The notes beneath the pieces were generated by a model. It had not been told where the DNA came from. It was given only the letters and a program-made list of their open reading frames with translations, and ran no database searches. From the IMG/VR virus record IMGVR_UViG_3300036781_000090, positions 1 to 63,203 of that record: 63,203 nt of DNA; one strand, 5' to 3'. The DNA is from a virus. Positions 9,840 to 20,722 of this stretch are shown piece after piece. Each line of letters opens with the position of its first letter. Within the stretch, counting starts at the first letter, position 1. The position numbers were made by a program, and so were the translations under genes.

Positions 9840-9910
9840 TGGCGGCCCACCTAGGAATCGAACCTAAGAAGTTGCGGTAACGTTACCTCCGCACCCCACC
9901 CAGTCAGGCC
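9840..9910 (-). other. tRNA-like 3' half
   Basis: On the minus strand, the T-arm TTAGG-TTCGATT-CCTAG (9867-9851), the acceptor 3' strand GTGGGCC (9850-9844), a discriminator G and an encoded CCA (9842-9840) look like the 3' half of a tRNA. Upstream, TGCGG/CCGCA pairs around an 11-base loop instead of 7, and no proper D-arm or matching 5' acceptor is found. It is best read as a degenerate tRNA or tRNA mimic, not a functional tRNA. Confidence 0.45.
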
Positions 9911-9934
9911 ATTACGAATGTTCTACCATACACC

Positions 9935-9963
9935 TTGACAGCCGTGCAACAAAATAATACAAT
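9935..9963 (+). promoter_or_regulatory. Strong sigma70-type promoter (site E)
   Basis: TTGACA (9935-9940), a 17-base spacer and TACAAT (9958-9963) form a near-consensus promoter 30 bases before the ATG at 9994. The -35 region TTGACAGCCGTGCAA is a degenerate copy of the palindromic operator found intact elsewhere. It should start the rightward GcrA-GapR-DnaA operon. Confidence 0.75.
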
Positions 9964-9993
9964 TTTTCCTTTGAAGCAAAATAAGGCTTGTTC

Positions 9994-10236
9994 ATGAAGA
10001 TTGATGCGCGCGATTTGCTCAACCATGCCGAAGTCGAAAGGCTTTTGGCGGAAATACACCGGGCGGCCAAATGGCTACAGCGTTCCCCTGGTGGACTAAC
10101 GGCAGAGCTAGTTGGCAACGGTCGAATCCCTGAGCGCCTAGAGGCTGGCGGCTCTGTGCTGCATTCCACGGCGAAGAAATTGCGCGCGCTTATGGACAAG
10201 CGGATCAAGAAGCTAATTGAGGCGGATAAGAAGTGA
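9994..10236 (+). CDS. First gene of the rightward operon
   Basis: 80 residues from the ATG preceded by AAGG. Helical and basic (KLRALMDKRIKKLIEADKK at the end). No family recognised. It overlaps the GcrA-like gene by GTGA, so the two are co-translated and may work together. Confidence 0.65.
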   Translation: MKIDARDLLNHAEVERLLAEIHRAAKWLQRSPGGLTAELVGNGRIPERLEAGGSVLHSTAKKLRALMDKRIKKLIEADKK

Positions 10237-10661
10237 CTTTCTGGACTGAAGATCGGATCGAGTGGTTGCGCCGGAACATCCATAACGGCCTATCGTCGGG
10301 TGTCACGGCATATCAGATTGGCTGCACACGAAACGCTGCAATAGGCAAAGCTAATCGGATGGGACTGCATTTCAAGTCTAAGGAAGGCCACAAGAGAAAG
10401 CCTATGGGTGGCAAACGAGTGCGTAAAAAGCCCATATTTATTGAACAAATCTACCCTTATCAGGAGGCGACCGTGGTTCCAGAACCAGTTTACGAGCCGC
10501 TACATCTGAGCTTTGGCCAGCTAAAGGATAGCCCGAAAATCTCGCAGTGCCGGTTTATCACATGCGATGGACCAACACGCTACTGCGGTCAACCCGTGAT
10601 CGCGGATTCGTCATGGTGCAAGCATTGCGCAAAGATCGTCTATCACCAGCGCGCGGCTTAG
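10233..10661 (+). CDS. GcrA-like cell-cycle regulator
   Basis: 142 residues, GTG start in a GTGA overlap. The N-terminal WTEDRIEWLRRNIHNGLS...CTRNAAIGKANRMGLHFKSK (about 4-49) matches the GcrA helix-turn-helix, in which the TRNAVIGKxxRLGL motif is diagnostic. The C-terminal CRFITC..TRYCGQPVIADSSWCKHCAKIVY (about 106-136) matches the conserved Cys/Gly end of GcrA that contacts sigma70. In alphaproteobacteria GcrA activates promoters carrying CcrM-methylated GANTC. A phage copy could redirect host RNA polymerase or read methylated phage promoters. The middle linker is basic and proline-containing as in relatives. Confidence 0.85.
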   Translation: MTFWTEDRIEWLRRNIHNGLSSGVTAYQIGCTRNAAIGKANRMGLHFKSKEGHKRKPMGGKRVRKKPIFIEQIYPYQEATVVPEPVYEPLHLSFGQLKDSPKISQCRFITCDGPTRYCGQPVIADSSWCKHCAKIVYHQRAA

Positions 10662-10693
10662 CGTTAACAATAGGTTAATGGACAGGAAATAAA

Positions 10694-11107
10694 ATGGGAC
10701 AAGCAGGAATTGGTGCGATGCTACACTACTTAGGCGGCGGTTCTAAGCACGATCCTAAGGAATATTACGGGCAAACGATTTTGGCCGCTGATATAGCCGA
10801 CGACAAACTAAGCCTAAAGCTTGATGGTGGGAAAACCATTGAAATTTGGGATAATGGCCAATCCTGCTGCGAGAACCGCTACATGCGGACGGATGACGAT
10901 CTCTCATCTTTAGTTGGCAATACTCTAGTTCGCATTGAAGCCAAGGATGGCCCTGACATTGGCGATAACGATTATGATGTTCATGAACAAGTGTTTGTGG
11001 AGGTCGGGACCGACAAGGGTTTTATCACCATCGCCAATCACAATGAACACAACGGCTATTACGGCGGCTTTGGTCTGACCATCACCGAGTCCGACGAACA
11101 GCGTTAA
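10694..11107 (+). CDS. DUF7448-like phage protein
   Basis: 137 residues. The block GQSCCENRYMRTDDDLSSLVG and the end NEHNGYYGGFGLTI are typical of a widespread phage protein family (I recall it as DUF7448) with no known activity. The start has AGGAAATAAA upstream. Confidence 0.75.
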   Translation: MGQAGIGAMLHYLGGGSKHDPKEYYGQTILAADIADDKLSLKLDGGKTIEIWDNGQSCCENRYMRTDDDLSSLVGNTLVRIEAKDGPDIGDNDYDVHEQVFVEVGTDKGFITIANHNEHNGYYGGFGLTITESDEQR

Positions 11108-11135
11108 GTATCCAACAATGAACAAGGAGAGTTAA

Positions 11136-11439
11136 ATGCTCTATGATCCGAAGTGGGAAAAGATTGAAACAAAGGCCGATCCGCACAGCGTTGCTGGGAT
11201 TGATTGTTTGGTTGGAGAATCAACCAGCAGATAAAATATATTGCTATGAGGACAGTGGCCGGTGTTTGGCTGCTCAATATCGGGCGGCTATTGGCGAAAA
11301 ATACATTCCTCCGGGCGCAGATTTGTCGATATTGCGCCTTCCGAAATCTGAATGGCCATTTACCGATATTCTGGAGGATGTTGCGGTTAAAAAACCGCGT
11401 ACTTTTGGTGCTGCTCTAAAACGTGCTCGTTCATTGTAG
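11136..11439 (+). pseudogene. Frameshifted gene
   Basis: The natural start is ATG at 11136, with AGGAG five bases upstream; this frame reads MLYDPKWEKIETKADPHSVAG and stops at 11232-11234. The rest of a coherent protein (WLENQPADKIYCYEDSGRCLAAQY onward to 11439) lies in the +1 frame. The join falls near GCTGGGATTG at about 11197-11206, where one extra G would explain the shift. I remember a Rhizobiales phage family that reads through this region as one protein. It is a pseudogene, a programmed frameshift or a sequencing error. Confidence 0.65.
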
Positions 11440-11457
11440 TGCAGTGTGGAGACAAAG

Positions 11458-11676
11458 ATGTCTGAAACCGAAGCGGAAGCAGCTTTCGCCGCACTGAGAG
11501 TCGCGGAACAAGAATGTTGGTCGATCAATTGCCAAAATTACCCTACGGGCGGTGGAGATGCTGAAGTCGGTTGGGAAGTTATCAGCCATTGGCAGGCTGA
11601 GCCACGCGAACGAGTAGAAGGGTATGGAAGAACTCCTCTTGAGGCCCTTAAGGAAGCTATCGCAAAAAATCGCTGA
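11458..11676 (+). CDS. Hypothetical protein
   Basis: 72 residues starting MSETEAEA after GGAGACAAAG. The segment GDAEVGWEVISHW and the terminal GRTPLEALKEAIAKN suggest a small alpha/beta fold. Family not recognised. Confidence 0.6.
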   Translation: MSETEAEAAFAALRVAEQECWSINCQNYPTGGGDAEVGWEVISHWQAEPRERVEGYGRTPLEALKEAIAKNR

Positions 11677-11707
11677 TATCACTGAACAACAAACAACGGG
11701 AGATTTT

Positions 11708-11845
11708 ATGCCAGACATGCACCTGATGGATTACTACTTCCACAAGATGGTTACTGCGGTTGGGCCAGAATGGCGCATTGCTCGCCGCCGTGCCTATCAG
11801 CACGGCTTCAATAGCGGGTGGACAAACCTTAAGGAGCCGGTCTGA
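11708..11845 (+). CDS. 45-residue hypothetical protein
   Basis: Starts MPDMHLMDYYF after GGGAGATTTT. Helical, with ARRRAYQHGFNSGW. Stop overlaps the next start (TGATG). Family not recognised. Confidence 0.55.
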   Translation: MPDMHLMDYYFHKMVTAVGPEWRIARRRAYQHGFNSGWTNLKEPV

Positions 11846-12030
11846 TGAAAACGGGCGACCCCGACATGCCTGACTTGAGCTTGTGCAGCTTCGAATATCT
11901 TGCCGCCGAAATGAGGAAGCGTGGTGCGACCGTTACGCCTGCGCCTCACGGTGGTGACTTTGAAAGCCCGATGCAGCACATCGCTGACGACATTCGCGAT
12001 GGCGTTTTCCCGCGCAAGTCGCCGCGTTAA
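11845..12030 (+). CDS. 61-residue hypothetical protein
   Basis: Shares one base with the upstream stop and has AAGGAG in the upstream gene. No motif recognised. Confidence 0.55.
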   Translation: MKTGDPDMPDLSLCSFEYLAAEMRKRGATVTPAPHGGDFESPMQHIADDIRDGVFPRKSPR

Positions 12031-12054
12031 CACCCTGTAAGCATTGAGGACGCT

Positions 12055-12291
12055 ATGTCTGACAGAGACGCGCATATCGCTATCATGGTTGCTGCCGCCA
12101 GAGGCGTCGGCTTGCGTCTGTCTGCTGATGAAGTCTGGGCGCTATCTCAGGATGAAGCCATCGTAGCAGCCGCTACAAATGGTCTCGACGAGATCGACTG
12201 GCCAGGTCACGCCGATGCTAAATCTTACGTCCGATGGGAAAAGATTAAGCGTTATCGCAAAGGGCGCATCGGTAAGAATTTCGCGGTTTAA
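12055..12291 (+). CDS. 78-residue hypothetical protein
   Basis: ATG follows TGAGGACGCT. The segment LSADEVWALSQDEAIVAAA is an acidic helix pair; the C terminus is basic (KIKRYRKGRIGK). Family not recognised. Confidence 0.55.
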   Translation: MSDRDAHIAIMVAAARGVGLRLSADEVWALSQDEAIVAAATNGLDEIDWPGHADAKSYVRWEKIKRYRKGRIGKNFAV

Positions 12292-12331
12292 CTGTTAACG
12301 GCCCGTCAATGAACAACAAACAGGAGAGAAC

Positions 12332-12634
12332 ATGAAAGAGGGAAATAATAGCACAGCCGAGCGCAACGAATATGGGGCTCGTATCAACAATCTACATAAT
12401 CAAAAAGACGATATCGATCAGGATATCAAAGACATTTACCTTGAGGCAAAGAGCAAAGGAATTGAAGTTCCGGTTCTTAAGCGCGCGGTGAAACTGCTGC
12501 GCGAAGATGAGGAAAAGAAACGCAAGCGTTTGGAAATTGAAGAGGAAGCCGAATTGGTGGCGAAGTCCTTGGGAGAATATCTCAATACGCCTTTGGGCCA
12601 AGCCGCCGTCCGTAATGTTCTAGTGGCAGGTTGA
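12332..12634 (+). CDS. GapR-like (DUF2312) nucleoid protein
   Basis: 100 residues. INNLHNQKDDIDQDIKDIYLEAKSKGIEVPVLKRAVKLLREDEEKKRKRLEIEE (about 18-70) follows the DUF2312/GapR pattern of coiled coil, DIKEVYAEAK helix and ILRKVI-type helix. GapR in Caulobacter is an essential nucleoid-associated protein that clamps overtwisted DNA ahead of forks and promotes topoisomerase action. The phage version extends further at the C terminus (about 30 residues). Leader ATGAACAACAAACAGGAG precedes the start. It sits immediately before a DnaA-domain-IV gene. Confidence 0.8.
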   Translation: MKEGNNSTAERNEYGARINNLHNQKDDIDQDIKDIYLEAKSKGIEVPVLKRAVKLLREDEEKKRKRLEIEEEAELVAKSLGEYLNTPLGQAAVRNVLVAG

Positions 12635-12637
12635 GTC

Positions 12638-13204
12638 ATGAGCCTGTACGAGTATCAACCAACTACGTCAGAATTGAAATTCTATCGAGACAGACAGCGC
12701 GCGCGGGCTAATATGGAAGCCCGCGCCAAGCCAATTAAGCATACCATCAAGTTTAATCTACCGGAGCGCGGCTCCTTCGATTTCTGGGAAATGCCAAGCC
12801 CATGTCAAGGATTTGAAATCAAAACTATTAATGCGGACCGACAGTTATCCCATGTATTTTATACGATTCGAGAAATCCAGGAAATGGTCTGCCTACTTGG
12901 CCACGTTACCTTGAACGATCTTATTTCAGCCCATCGGCATCAAAACATCTGTAATGCGCGCCATGTTGCGGTGGCCCTTTGTCGGGTTTTTACTAGTCGG
13001 TCAATGCCAGAAATAGGCCGTATGTTTGGTGGAAAGGATCATTCAACTATCCATAATTCTATTACCAAAATGAAACCTGTAGTTGCGGAAATTGAATGGT
13101 CATTCAATGCTCAATCTCTGGAGTACATTGTGCGCTCTGCGCTTGATGTGTGTTGGCGTCTATATCCGCCTGCAAAATATTCGCGACATGGCGCTAGGCC
13201 ATAA
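12638..13204 (+). CDS. DnaA domain IV-like DNA-binding protein
   Basis: 188 residues with no ATPase domain. Residues about 90-147 match DnaA domain IV: VTLNDLISAHR, then ARHVAVALCRVFTSRSMPEIG and FGGKDHSTIHN (130-140), the last being the DnaA-box-binding signature (usual form FGGRDHTTVxH). The N-terminal 85 residues are basic and unrelated. It would bind DnaA boxes without loading helicase, so it could compete with host DnaA or act as an origin-recognition factor for the phage. It lies three bases after the GapR-like gene. Confidence 0.87.
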   Translation: MSLYEYQPTTSELKFYRDRQRARANMEARAKPIKHTIKFNLPERGSFDFWEMPSPCQGFEIKTINADRQLSHVFYTIREIQEMVCLLGHVTLNDLISAHRHQNICNARHVAVALCRVFTSRSMPEIGRMFGGKDHSTIHNSITKMKPVVAEIEWSFNAQSLEYIVRSALDVCWRLYPPAKYSRHGARP

Positions 13205-13206
13205 AA

Positions 13207-13761
13207 ATGAAGAAAAGATATAGACTTCCATCTCAGGAACTTCTCAAATCTCGTTTAAATTACAATCCAGACACTGGGATATTTACGTGGATAATAAAAC
13301 CGGCTTGGGGAACTTACATAGGTGATATAGCTGGCGGCCCGCGAAGAAAATCCCACGGAACTTATTTAGCCATTAAGATTTTGGACTACGGTCAAATTGA
13401 CTCTCATCGACTTGCTTGGATTTACGTCCACGGCTCGATTCCAGACGGCATGGAAATTGACCACAAAGACCGGAACCCATCCAATAACCGTCTATCGAAT
13501 CTTCGGCTAGCCACTTCCTCAGAGCAAAAACGCAACAAAGGTGTTCAGTCAAATAATCGTTGCGGACTTAAGGGCGCTTTTTACCACAATAGGCATGAGG
13601 GGAAACCAAACTACGCCTCTTGCAAGAATTGGCGATCACAGATCAAAGCGCCGGATAAAAAGCTGATCTTCCTCGGGTATTTCCATACGCCAGAAGATGC
13701 CCATGAAGCCTACAAGGCGGCGGCTGTTAAATATTATGGCGAATGGGCTTGCTTAGGATAG
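13207..13761 (+). CDS. HNH homing endonuclease with AP2 domain
   Basis: 184 residues. The HNH core DSHRLAWIYVHGSIPDGMEIDHKDRNPSNNRLSNLR (about 61-96, key residues H, D-H and N) is followed by an AP2-like DNA-binding domain ending FLGYFHTPEDAHEAYKAAAVKYYGE (about 154-178). Free-standing enzymes of this type cut phage DNA and spread by homing. It is inserted between the DnaA-IV gene and promoter site C. Confidence 0.9.
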   Translation: MKKRYRLPSQELLKSRLNYNPDTGIFTWIIKPAWGTYIGDIAGGPRRKSHGTYLAIKILDYGQIDSHRLAWIYVHGSIPDGMEIDHKDRNPSNNRLSNLRLATSSEQKRNKGVQSNNRCGLKGAFYHNRHEGKPNYASCKNWRSQIKAPDKKLIFLGYFHTPEDAHEAYKAAAVKYYGEWACLG

Positions 13762-20116: not shown

Positions 20117-20722
20117 ATGCAGTATCTCTACGTCCGTAATTGGGCGACATTTCAGCACTACAAATATCGCAATCCGCCGTGGATTAAACTCCACCGGGAA
20201 ATTCTCACAAGCACCGATTGGGTTTCCGTAGATGATGCTAGCAAGCTGCTAGCAATCGTCTGCATGATCGTGGGCGCTAAGGATCAGGGCCGCGTGCCTA
20301 ATGATCCGGCGTTCCTTAAGCGGATAGCCTATCTAGATAAGCTTCCAAATCTTAAACCATTGATTGAATGTGGGTTTCTCACAGAAACGCTAGCAGATGC
20401 TAGCAAACGGGAGCAACTGCGTACAAATGCTCCGACAGAGTCCAGAGTCCAGAGTTCAGATACAGATTTAGAAAGTAAGAAAGTTGATGATGATGTTAAG
20501 AAAAACGGAAAGGGGGATAAAAAAACAAAACCCCAGCATCTTCAGCAAACCCGTGACGGCAAGCGGCTGTGGTGCGACCAAGGGACTTCCGAATGGGTAG
20601 CCTATCTGAATGATTTCAAAGCTGCGCACTCAGGGGTAGACCCAAAGATCGAATGGAATGGCGCTGGCGCATGGTTTAATACGGAAGGGGAAATTAGGAT
20701 GGCTAAGGCTGTTCCAAAATAG
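20117..20722 (+). CDS. Replication-initiation-type protein
   Basis: 201 residues. The N-terminal block NWATFQHYKYRNPPWIKLHREILTS...LIECGFL (about 8-88) matches a winged-helix domain found at the start of many alphaproteobacterial phage replication proteins (O-protein/DnaD-like role). The middle is a charged linker (KKNGKGDKKTKPQ), and the end holds DGKRLWCDQGTSEW. Such proteins bind the origin and bring in the host helicase. The start codon is preceded by GCGGGG inside a hairpin, so translation may be controlled by RNA folding. Confidence 0.65.
   Translation: MQYLYVRNWATFQHYKYRNPPWIKLHREILTSTDWVSVDDASKLLAIVCMIVGAKDQGRVPNDPAFLKRIAYLDKLPNLKPLIECGFLTETLADASKREQLRTNAPTESRVQSSDTDLESKKVDDDVKKNGKGDKKTKPQHLQQTRDGKRLWCDQGTSEWVAYLNDFKAAHSGVDPKIEWNGAGAWFNTEGEIRMAKAVPK

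Follow-up and report, generated by a model that had tools for sequence, protein, structure and literature searches.

Phages that carry a GcrA of their own have been described before: phiCbK and its relatives encode one (gp222), for which it has been proposed that it raises the replication state of the host (PMC3556154), and gp5 of the Agrobacterium phage Atu_ph08 is another example (PMC6630229). For GapR, ORF28 of the Erythrobacter phage R34L1 has been called the first in a phage genome (PMC12185513), and DsbA of phage T4, a relative of GapR that binds double-stranded DNA, is tied to T4 late transcription (PMC7824862). Host replication initiation is touched by YfdR, a protein of an E. coli cryptic prophage that binds DnaA and has been linked to blocked initiation (PMC4776307), and the CtrA-controlled phages of Alphaproteobacteria, for which the term 'lytic deferment' is used, are tied to the host cell-cycle circuit via host CtrA sites; the study that described them found no skew in where GcrA or DnaA sites lie in phages (PMC9437464). 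The subject of this text is the IMG/VR virus record IMGVR_UViG_3300036781_000090, the whole 63,203 bases of which are called the window in the following, and in which a GcrA-like protein, a GapR-like protein and a protein with DnaA domain IV (DnaA-IV) are encoded together in one early rightward operon.

The window has in common with phiCbK and Atu_ph08 the phage-borne protein of the PF07750 family and the proposed rise in the host replication state, but phiCbK is a large lytic phage with its own T7-like polymerase, unlike the window, and neither of the two papers names a GapR or DnaA-IV partner (PMC3556154, PMC6630229). The same holds for R34L1, which shares with the window a phage GapR, but whose description names no GcrA or DnaA. 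Like the GapR-like protein of the window, T4 DsbA is a phage protein of the kind that binds double-stranded DNA, but T4 is not an alphaproteobacterial phage. YfdR and the DnaA-IV protein are both phage or prophage products aimed at host initiation, in case of the window by the proposal made here, yet YfdR is an unrelated protein and binds DnaA itself and not the boxes. The lytic-deferment phages and the window are both tied to the host cell-cycle circuit, the former by their use of host CtrA sites. In the open-access literature, no paper was found that treats GcrA, GapR and a phage together, and none on a phage-encoded DnaA. As far as this literature shows, neither the linkage nor the DnaA-IV family has been described before, although both fall within a known kind, namely phages that borrow cell-cycle regulators of the host. 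The first-pass annotation of this DNA, which knew of no description of the three as one system, agrees with this as to the linkage, whereas phage GcrA and phage GapR as such had already been published.

That annotation had recognised the three proteins from the letters alone, and both the assignments and the arrangement as one operon on the plus strand (Table 1) hold, with matches above the curated Pfam cut-offs for all three proteins. Neither of the two outcomes that the annotation had named as counter-evidence, a lack of profile matches for two of the three or deviating folds, occurred. The GcrA-like protein matches PF07750 with an E-value of 2.8e-12 (47.7 bits, cut-off 26.9) from residue 4 to 141, which is nearly the full profile (as far as position 149 of 155), and the PDB entries 7ye1 and 5yiu with E-values of about 2e-5. 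Its N-terminal helix-turn-helix (HTH) domain (residues 4-45, recognition helix TRNAAIGKANRMGL) keeps the pattern TRNA.IGK..R.GL, and its C-terminal zinc-type domain has the cysteines C106, C118, C129 and C132. The C-terminal pattern CxWP...FCG...YCxxH can be recognised, with Cys132 in place of the usual histidine and a diverged WPxG part, and when the protein is aligned with 18 relatives from phages, W4, K39, C106, C118 and C129 are invariant. The top Foldseek match of the AlphaFold model (predicted local distance difference test, pLDDT, 85) is 7ye1_G from the GcrA transcription-activation complex, and the DNA-binding domain superposes on 5yiu with 0.7 Å over 43 columns; with two small domains and a loose linker between them, the Foldseek E-values come out weak. 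As the N-terminus of GcrA is similar to many HTH domains, and as the GcrA copies of phages have diverged from that of the window (20-33% identity, and a single weak tblastn match among 50,697 phage records), one may ask whether generic HTH and coiled-coil proteins merely resemble the named families. This is highly improbable, since all three proteins exceed the curated cut-offs, the GcrA match covers both domains with conserved cysteines, and the top PDB match of the models of the GcrA-like and the DnaA-IV protein is in each case a member of their own family.

The GapR-like protein matches PF10073 (E 3.7e-10, 39.7 bits, cut-off 22.6) and the GapR structures 6ozz/6cg8 (E 2e-7). The match includes the DNA-binding helical core, in which R17, I32, E38 and G43 are invariant, and the protein differs by a small insertion in the C-terminal part and by an extra phage-type 'TPLGQAA' tail. 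It belongs to a phage-specific lineage, as it falls into a clade that consists only of phage proteins (tree support 0.885). With tblastn, no match was obtained in the 50,697 phage records. At least 593 stretches were matched in the IMG/VR scan (loci L294-L373 and L533-L609), and GapR is therefore common in phages, contrary to the 2025 report of a first in a phage genome (PMC12185513).

The DnaA-IV protein matches PF08299 (Bac_DnaA_C) with an E-value of 3.5e-20 over residues 78-144. The top Foldseek match of the domain IV model is 1j1v_A (template modelling score 0.80, E 2.5e-5), which is DnaA domain IV bound to a DnaA box. In the alignment to this structure, R100, R108, D134, H135, S136 and T137 correspond to R399, R407, D433, H434, T435 and T436 of E. 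coli DnaA, so that of these residues, which we take to be the DnaA-box contacts of the 1J1V structure, only T435 is changed, to serine. The protein thus shares fold and box-contact residues with domain IV of the Caulobacter and E. coli DnaA. Unlike cellular DnaA it has no domain I, and as the AAA+ ATPase domain III is absent as judged by Pfam, it is a domain IV protein and not a full DnaA; in front of the domain there are about 75 residues that form a tail with a disordered linker and one predicted helix (residues 10-29). Proteins of this type form a phage family: DnaA-IV without the ATPase is encoded in 73 non-redundant virus loci, typically in open reading frames (ORFs) of about 150-285 codons, and most of the proteins consist of a tail of about 60-100 residues with domain IV at the end. 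R100, R108, D134, H135 and T137 are conserved across the family. The tail is variable, and the motif of helix 10-29 was found in 18 of 67 N-termini (E < 0.1) as compared to 0.1 in shuffled sets. An IMG/VR scan with the DnaA-IV protein as a single sequence found nothing; alignments were needed. A full-length DnaA that has both AAA+ and domain IV is also present in virus contigs, for example L392 (8810-10279) and L386 (8933-10273), in both of which a GcrA gene follows directly, and in L401, L422, L425, L426, L429 and others; these were set apart before linkage rates were counted.

The three families are recurrently linked in other phages. They were searched in 142 alphaproteobacterial genomes and by IMG/VR scans seeded per family, of which the best 80 of 600 candidates were used; near-identical loci were removed, the remaining loci were scored by own hidden Markov models (HMMs), and rates refer to about 20 kb. 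In the background, which consists of terminase-centred loci, GcrA was found in 2/69, GapR in 2/69 and DnaA-IV in 3/69, and as the hosts of these loci are unmatched and the scans were capped, the p-values are rough: DnaA-IV loci contained GapR in 19/63 (p 1e-5 against 2/69) and GcrA in 9/63 cases (p 0.02), and GcrA loci contained DnaA-IV in 11/54 (p 0.006) and GapR in 8/54 (p 0.02), while 10 of 73 GapR loci had a GcrA. In a first tree, GapR was pulled toward DnaA-IV, which was partly a sampling effect, because divergent GapR could be reached through DnaA-IV anchors only. In an unbiased rescan seeded by the phage GapR clade, the association with DnaA-IV held, with 18 of 67 loci against 3 of 69 in the background (p 2e-4). 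GcrA and DnaA-IV genes have a median gap of 485 base pairs and lie on the same strand in 22 of 23 cases, a count that includes some full-length DnaA.

Two or more of the families occur in 76 non-redundant IMG/VR loci, usually on one strand and within 0.5-2.5 kb, and all three were detected by own HMMs in six clusters besides the window. In two of these (L480 and L514), Pfam cut-offs were passed for all three families; in L581 they were passed for two, with DnaA-IV just under the cut-off; in L402, GcrA is at the cut-off; in L314, Pfam does not recognise GcrA; and in L452, GapR is weak. L581 has the order XRE regulators, GcrA, DnaA-IV, GapR, then terminase and portal, and thus the same place in the genome as in the window, and L485, a near relative of L480, has the terminase family of the window 2 kb downstream. 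In some of the bacterial genomes, second copies lie near each other, as GapR and DnaA-IV (G184), GcrA and DnaA-IV (G053) or GcrA and GapR (G120). A prophage of Tistlia consotensis (L275 6458-7915, identical to L454) contains a 486-amino-acid ORF that combines DnaA-IV, a GcrA-type HTH and a further HTH-like region, and a separate GcrA follows 2 kb on. It could be argued that phages simply gather small host-derived DNA-binding genes in an early region that tolerates turnover, so that the genes would be co-located without joint function. Order and membership indeed vary, in most loci at least one of the three is missing, each family is often found by itself (161 GapR, 98 DnaA-IV and 81 GcrA clusters), and the region contains other, unrelated small genes. 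The tight spacing on a shared strand, the association that persists when the search is seeded by phage-type GapR alone, and the Tistlia fusion protein speak against mere co-location and make it unlikely. That the three proteins act together, as had been surmised in the first-pass annotation, is therefore backed by a linkage above the terminase-centred background and by the HTH fusion in one prophage, while the function proposed for them goes beyond these data.

As to where the proteins may act, the same annotation had offered as one option that DnaA and RNA polymerase are diverted to phage DNA, and the site distribution lends no support to DnaA boxes or GANTC as targets in the phage itself. 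The window has no consensus DnaA box (about 1 expected), its one-mismatch boxes (37 against 34.5 expected) are neither in excess nor clustered, and GANTC is absent from the early promoter. Across the DnaA-IV phages, TTATCCACA does not differ from controls, and an excess of TGATCCACA (17 against 9) does not reach significance when four tests are taken into account. GANTC as a whole is depleted in the window (121 observed, about 236 expected); as a separate observation, its ratio of observed to expected is about 0.4 in phage loci with the trio (L294-L532) and 0.65 in terminase-centred loci. This lack of clustered DnaA boxes in the phage and of GANTC at the early promoter makes targets on host DNA somewhat more likely. 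Regulation of the phage's own genes would nevertheless fit the position of the genes, which, in the 5 loci where that terminase family is present, lie 2-8 kb upstream of the terminase and on its strand (11 of 11 genes), where phages keep middle and late regulators. The GcrA-like and DnaA-IV proteins would then serve phage promoters or the phage origin with altered specificity, and GapR would be an accessory of late transcription or packaging, in line with the proposal that T4 DsbA assists RNA polymerase at late promoters (PMC7824862); the Tistlia protein, in which domain IV is joined to extra HTH domains, and the double role of alphaproteobacterial DnaA as a transcription factor (PMC3193534) point in the same direction. 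However, with unchanged box-contact residues the specificity should equal that of DnaA, and with DnaA boxes and GANTC distributed as described, such a function appears somewhat unlikely.

What is tentatively preferred here, with a probability a little short of even, is that the three genes belong to an early-phase toolkit, common among alphaproteobacterial phages and prophages, that would act mainly on the replication and transcription machinery of the host, and that would consist of small DNA-binding proteins derived from host cell-cycle parts and expressed alongside the replication genes. The DnaA-IV protein would occupy DnaA boxes (TTATNCACA) at the host oriC and at DnaA-controlled promoters, compete with host DnaA and thereby damp new host initiation, which is the simplest reading because a domain IV without ATPase is able to occupy boxes but not to open an origin. 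The GcrA-like protein may bring the host sigma70 RNA polymerase to promoters with methylated GANTC and in this way keep S-phase genes for replication and nucleotide supply switched on, and the GapR-like protein may bind the DNA that becomes overtwisted in front of active phage forks and transcripts, and help the host gyrase and topoisomerase IV. The replication machinery would thus be present and supplied, yet free for the phage. That DnaA-IV competitor, GcrA and GapR form a 'cell-cycle override' kit, which jointly stops host initiation and holds the cell in a replication-competent state, is a stronger claim and unlikely. Several points weigh against the toolkit. The three genes do not form a fixed operon, given their variable order and membership, and GapR loci found by a chromosome-like query have no excess of DnaA-IV (6/73), apart from the roughness of the p-values. 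From missing sites in the phage it does not follow that the proteins target host sites, the helical tail of DnaA-IV could confer a different partner, and that the GcrA-like protein binds sigma70 is an assumption based on its family. The support is altogether computational, from sequences and models.

Within the window, the operon lies between a divergent promoter and the genes for the replication protein and the terminase (Table 1). The probable early rightward promoter is the best sigma70 match within 7.5-15 kb and lies just ahead of the operon, in a region where the number of promoter-like sites equals chance. The first ORF ends in a stop codon that overlaps the GTG with which the GcrA gene begins.

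Table 1. Features of the early rightward region (positions in the window; aa, amino acids)
Feature	Position	Strand	Size or part	Basis or remark
Probable early promoter, near-consensus sigma70 (TTGACA-N17-TACAAT)	9935..9963	+		11/12 positions, consensus match only
First ORF of the operon, no family	9988..10236	+	82 aa	
GcrA-like protein	10233..10661	+	142 aa	PF07750; GTG start
DUF7448 protein	10694..11107	+		PF24240, E 2.3e-17
Small ORFs without family (run 11143..12291)	11143-11439, 11446-11676, 11624-11845, 11845-12030, 12055-12291	+		
GapR-like protein	12332..12634	+	100 aa	PF10073
DnaA domain IV protein	12638..13204	+	188 aa	PF08299
DnaA domain IV proper	12863..13081	+	residues 76-148	Alignment to 1j1v
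HNH endonuclease, probably a homing gene	13207..13761	+		Outside the three-gene set
Phage replication protein	20117..20722	+		phrog_26426, E 1.8e-12; downstream, rightward early region

The window groups with epsilon15/BPP-1-like podoviruses by its portal, terminase, capsid, large tail and internal virion proteins, and the leftward genes include Erf-like (annealing) and NinB recombination proteins. No DNA polymerase was found among the window ORFs scanned against PHROGs, and as Erf annealing and a replication protein are present, the phage probably uses the host replisome. The nearest terminase relatives in the genomes are from Rhodospirillales/Reyranella and other Proteobacteria, with about 60% identity or less, and a DNA search of the region against the 50,697 phage records gave no match. 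An alphaproteobacterial host that has CcrM would be in keeping with the GANTC depletion and with the genes present. GGATCC occurs once where 16 sites are expected, which suggests that the phage was once exposed to a restriction enzyme recognising this site. In the divergent intergenic region, positions 9841-9935 (minus strand) resemble a tRNA 3' half (CTTAGGTTCGATTCCTAGG...GGCCGCCA), in which ARAGORN detected no tRNA and Rfam gave no match; this is possibly an attP core, a reading to be seen together with the lack of an integrase among the scanned window ORFs.

The early half of the window, and only this half, also contains a 27-bp intergenic motif, roughly [AG]TCGC[AG]TTAACGnnnnCTTAATGGACA, at 1439, 2553, 4908, 8072, 9183 and 9506 mostly with leftward genes and at 10664, 12295, 14110, 14599 and 18637 with rightward genes. 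It is found at stop/start junctions and its orientation follows transcription. The core has the sequence of a perfect full site for CtrA, and TTAA-N7-TTAA is 10-fold enriched in the window (6 against about 0.6 expected). Control by CtrA was considered and rejected, since the motif is longer, oriented with transcription, positioned at stop/start junctions and not abundant in 319 related loci. The element is read as a phage-specific intergenic element and is poor evidence for CtrA; its closer resemblance is to the start-associated elements and stoperators of mycobacteriophages.

Single copies of GcrA or GapR in phages were known earlier as curiosities. Their clustering, together with DnaA-IV, in many unrelated phages turns phage control of the alphaproteobacterial cell cycle into a testable general strategy. 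Small natural proteins are gained as well, namely a candidate DnaA-box blocker without ATPase and divergent GcrA and GapR proteins, which may be of use in Caulobacter-type bacteria for dissecting initiation, GANTC-dependent transcription and the management of supercoils.

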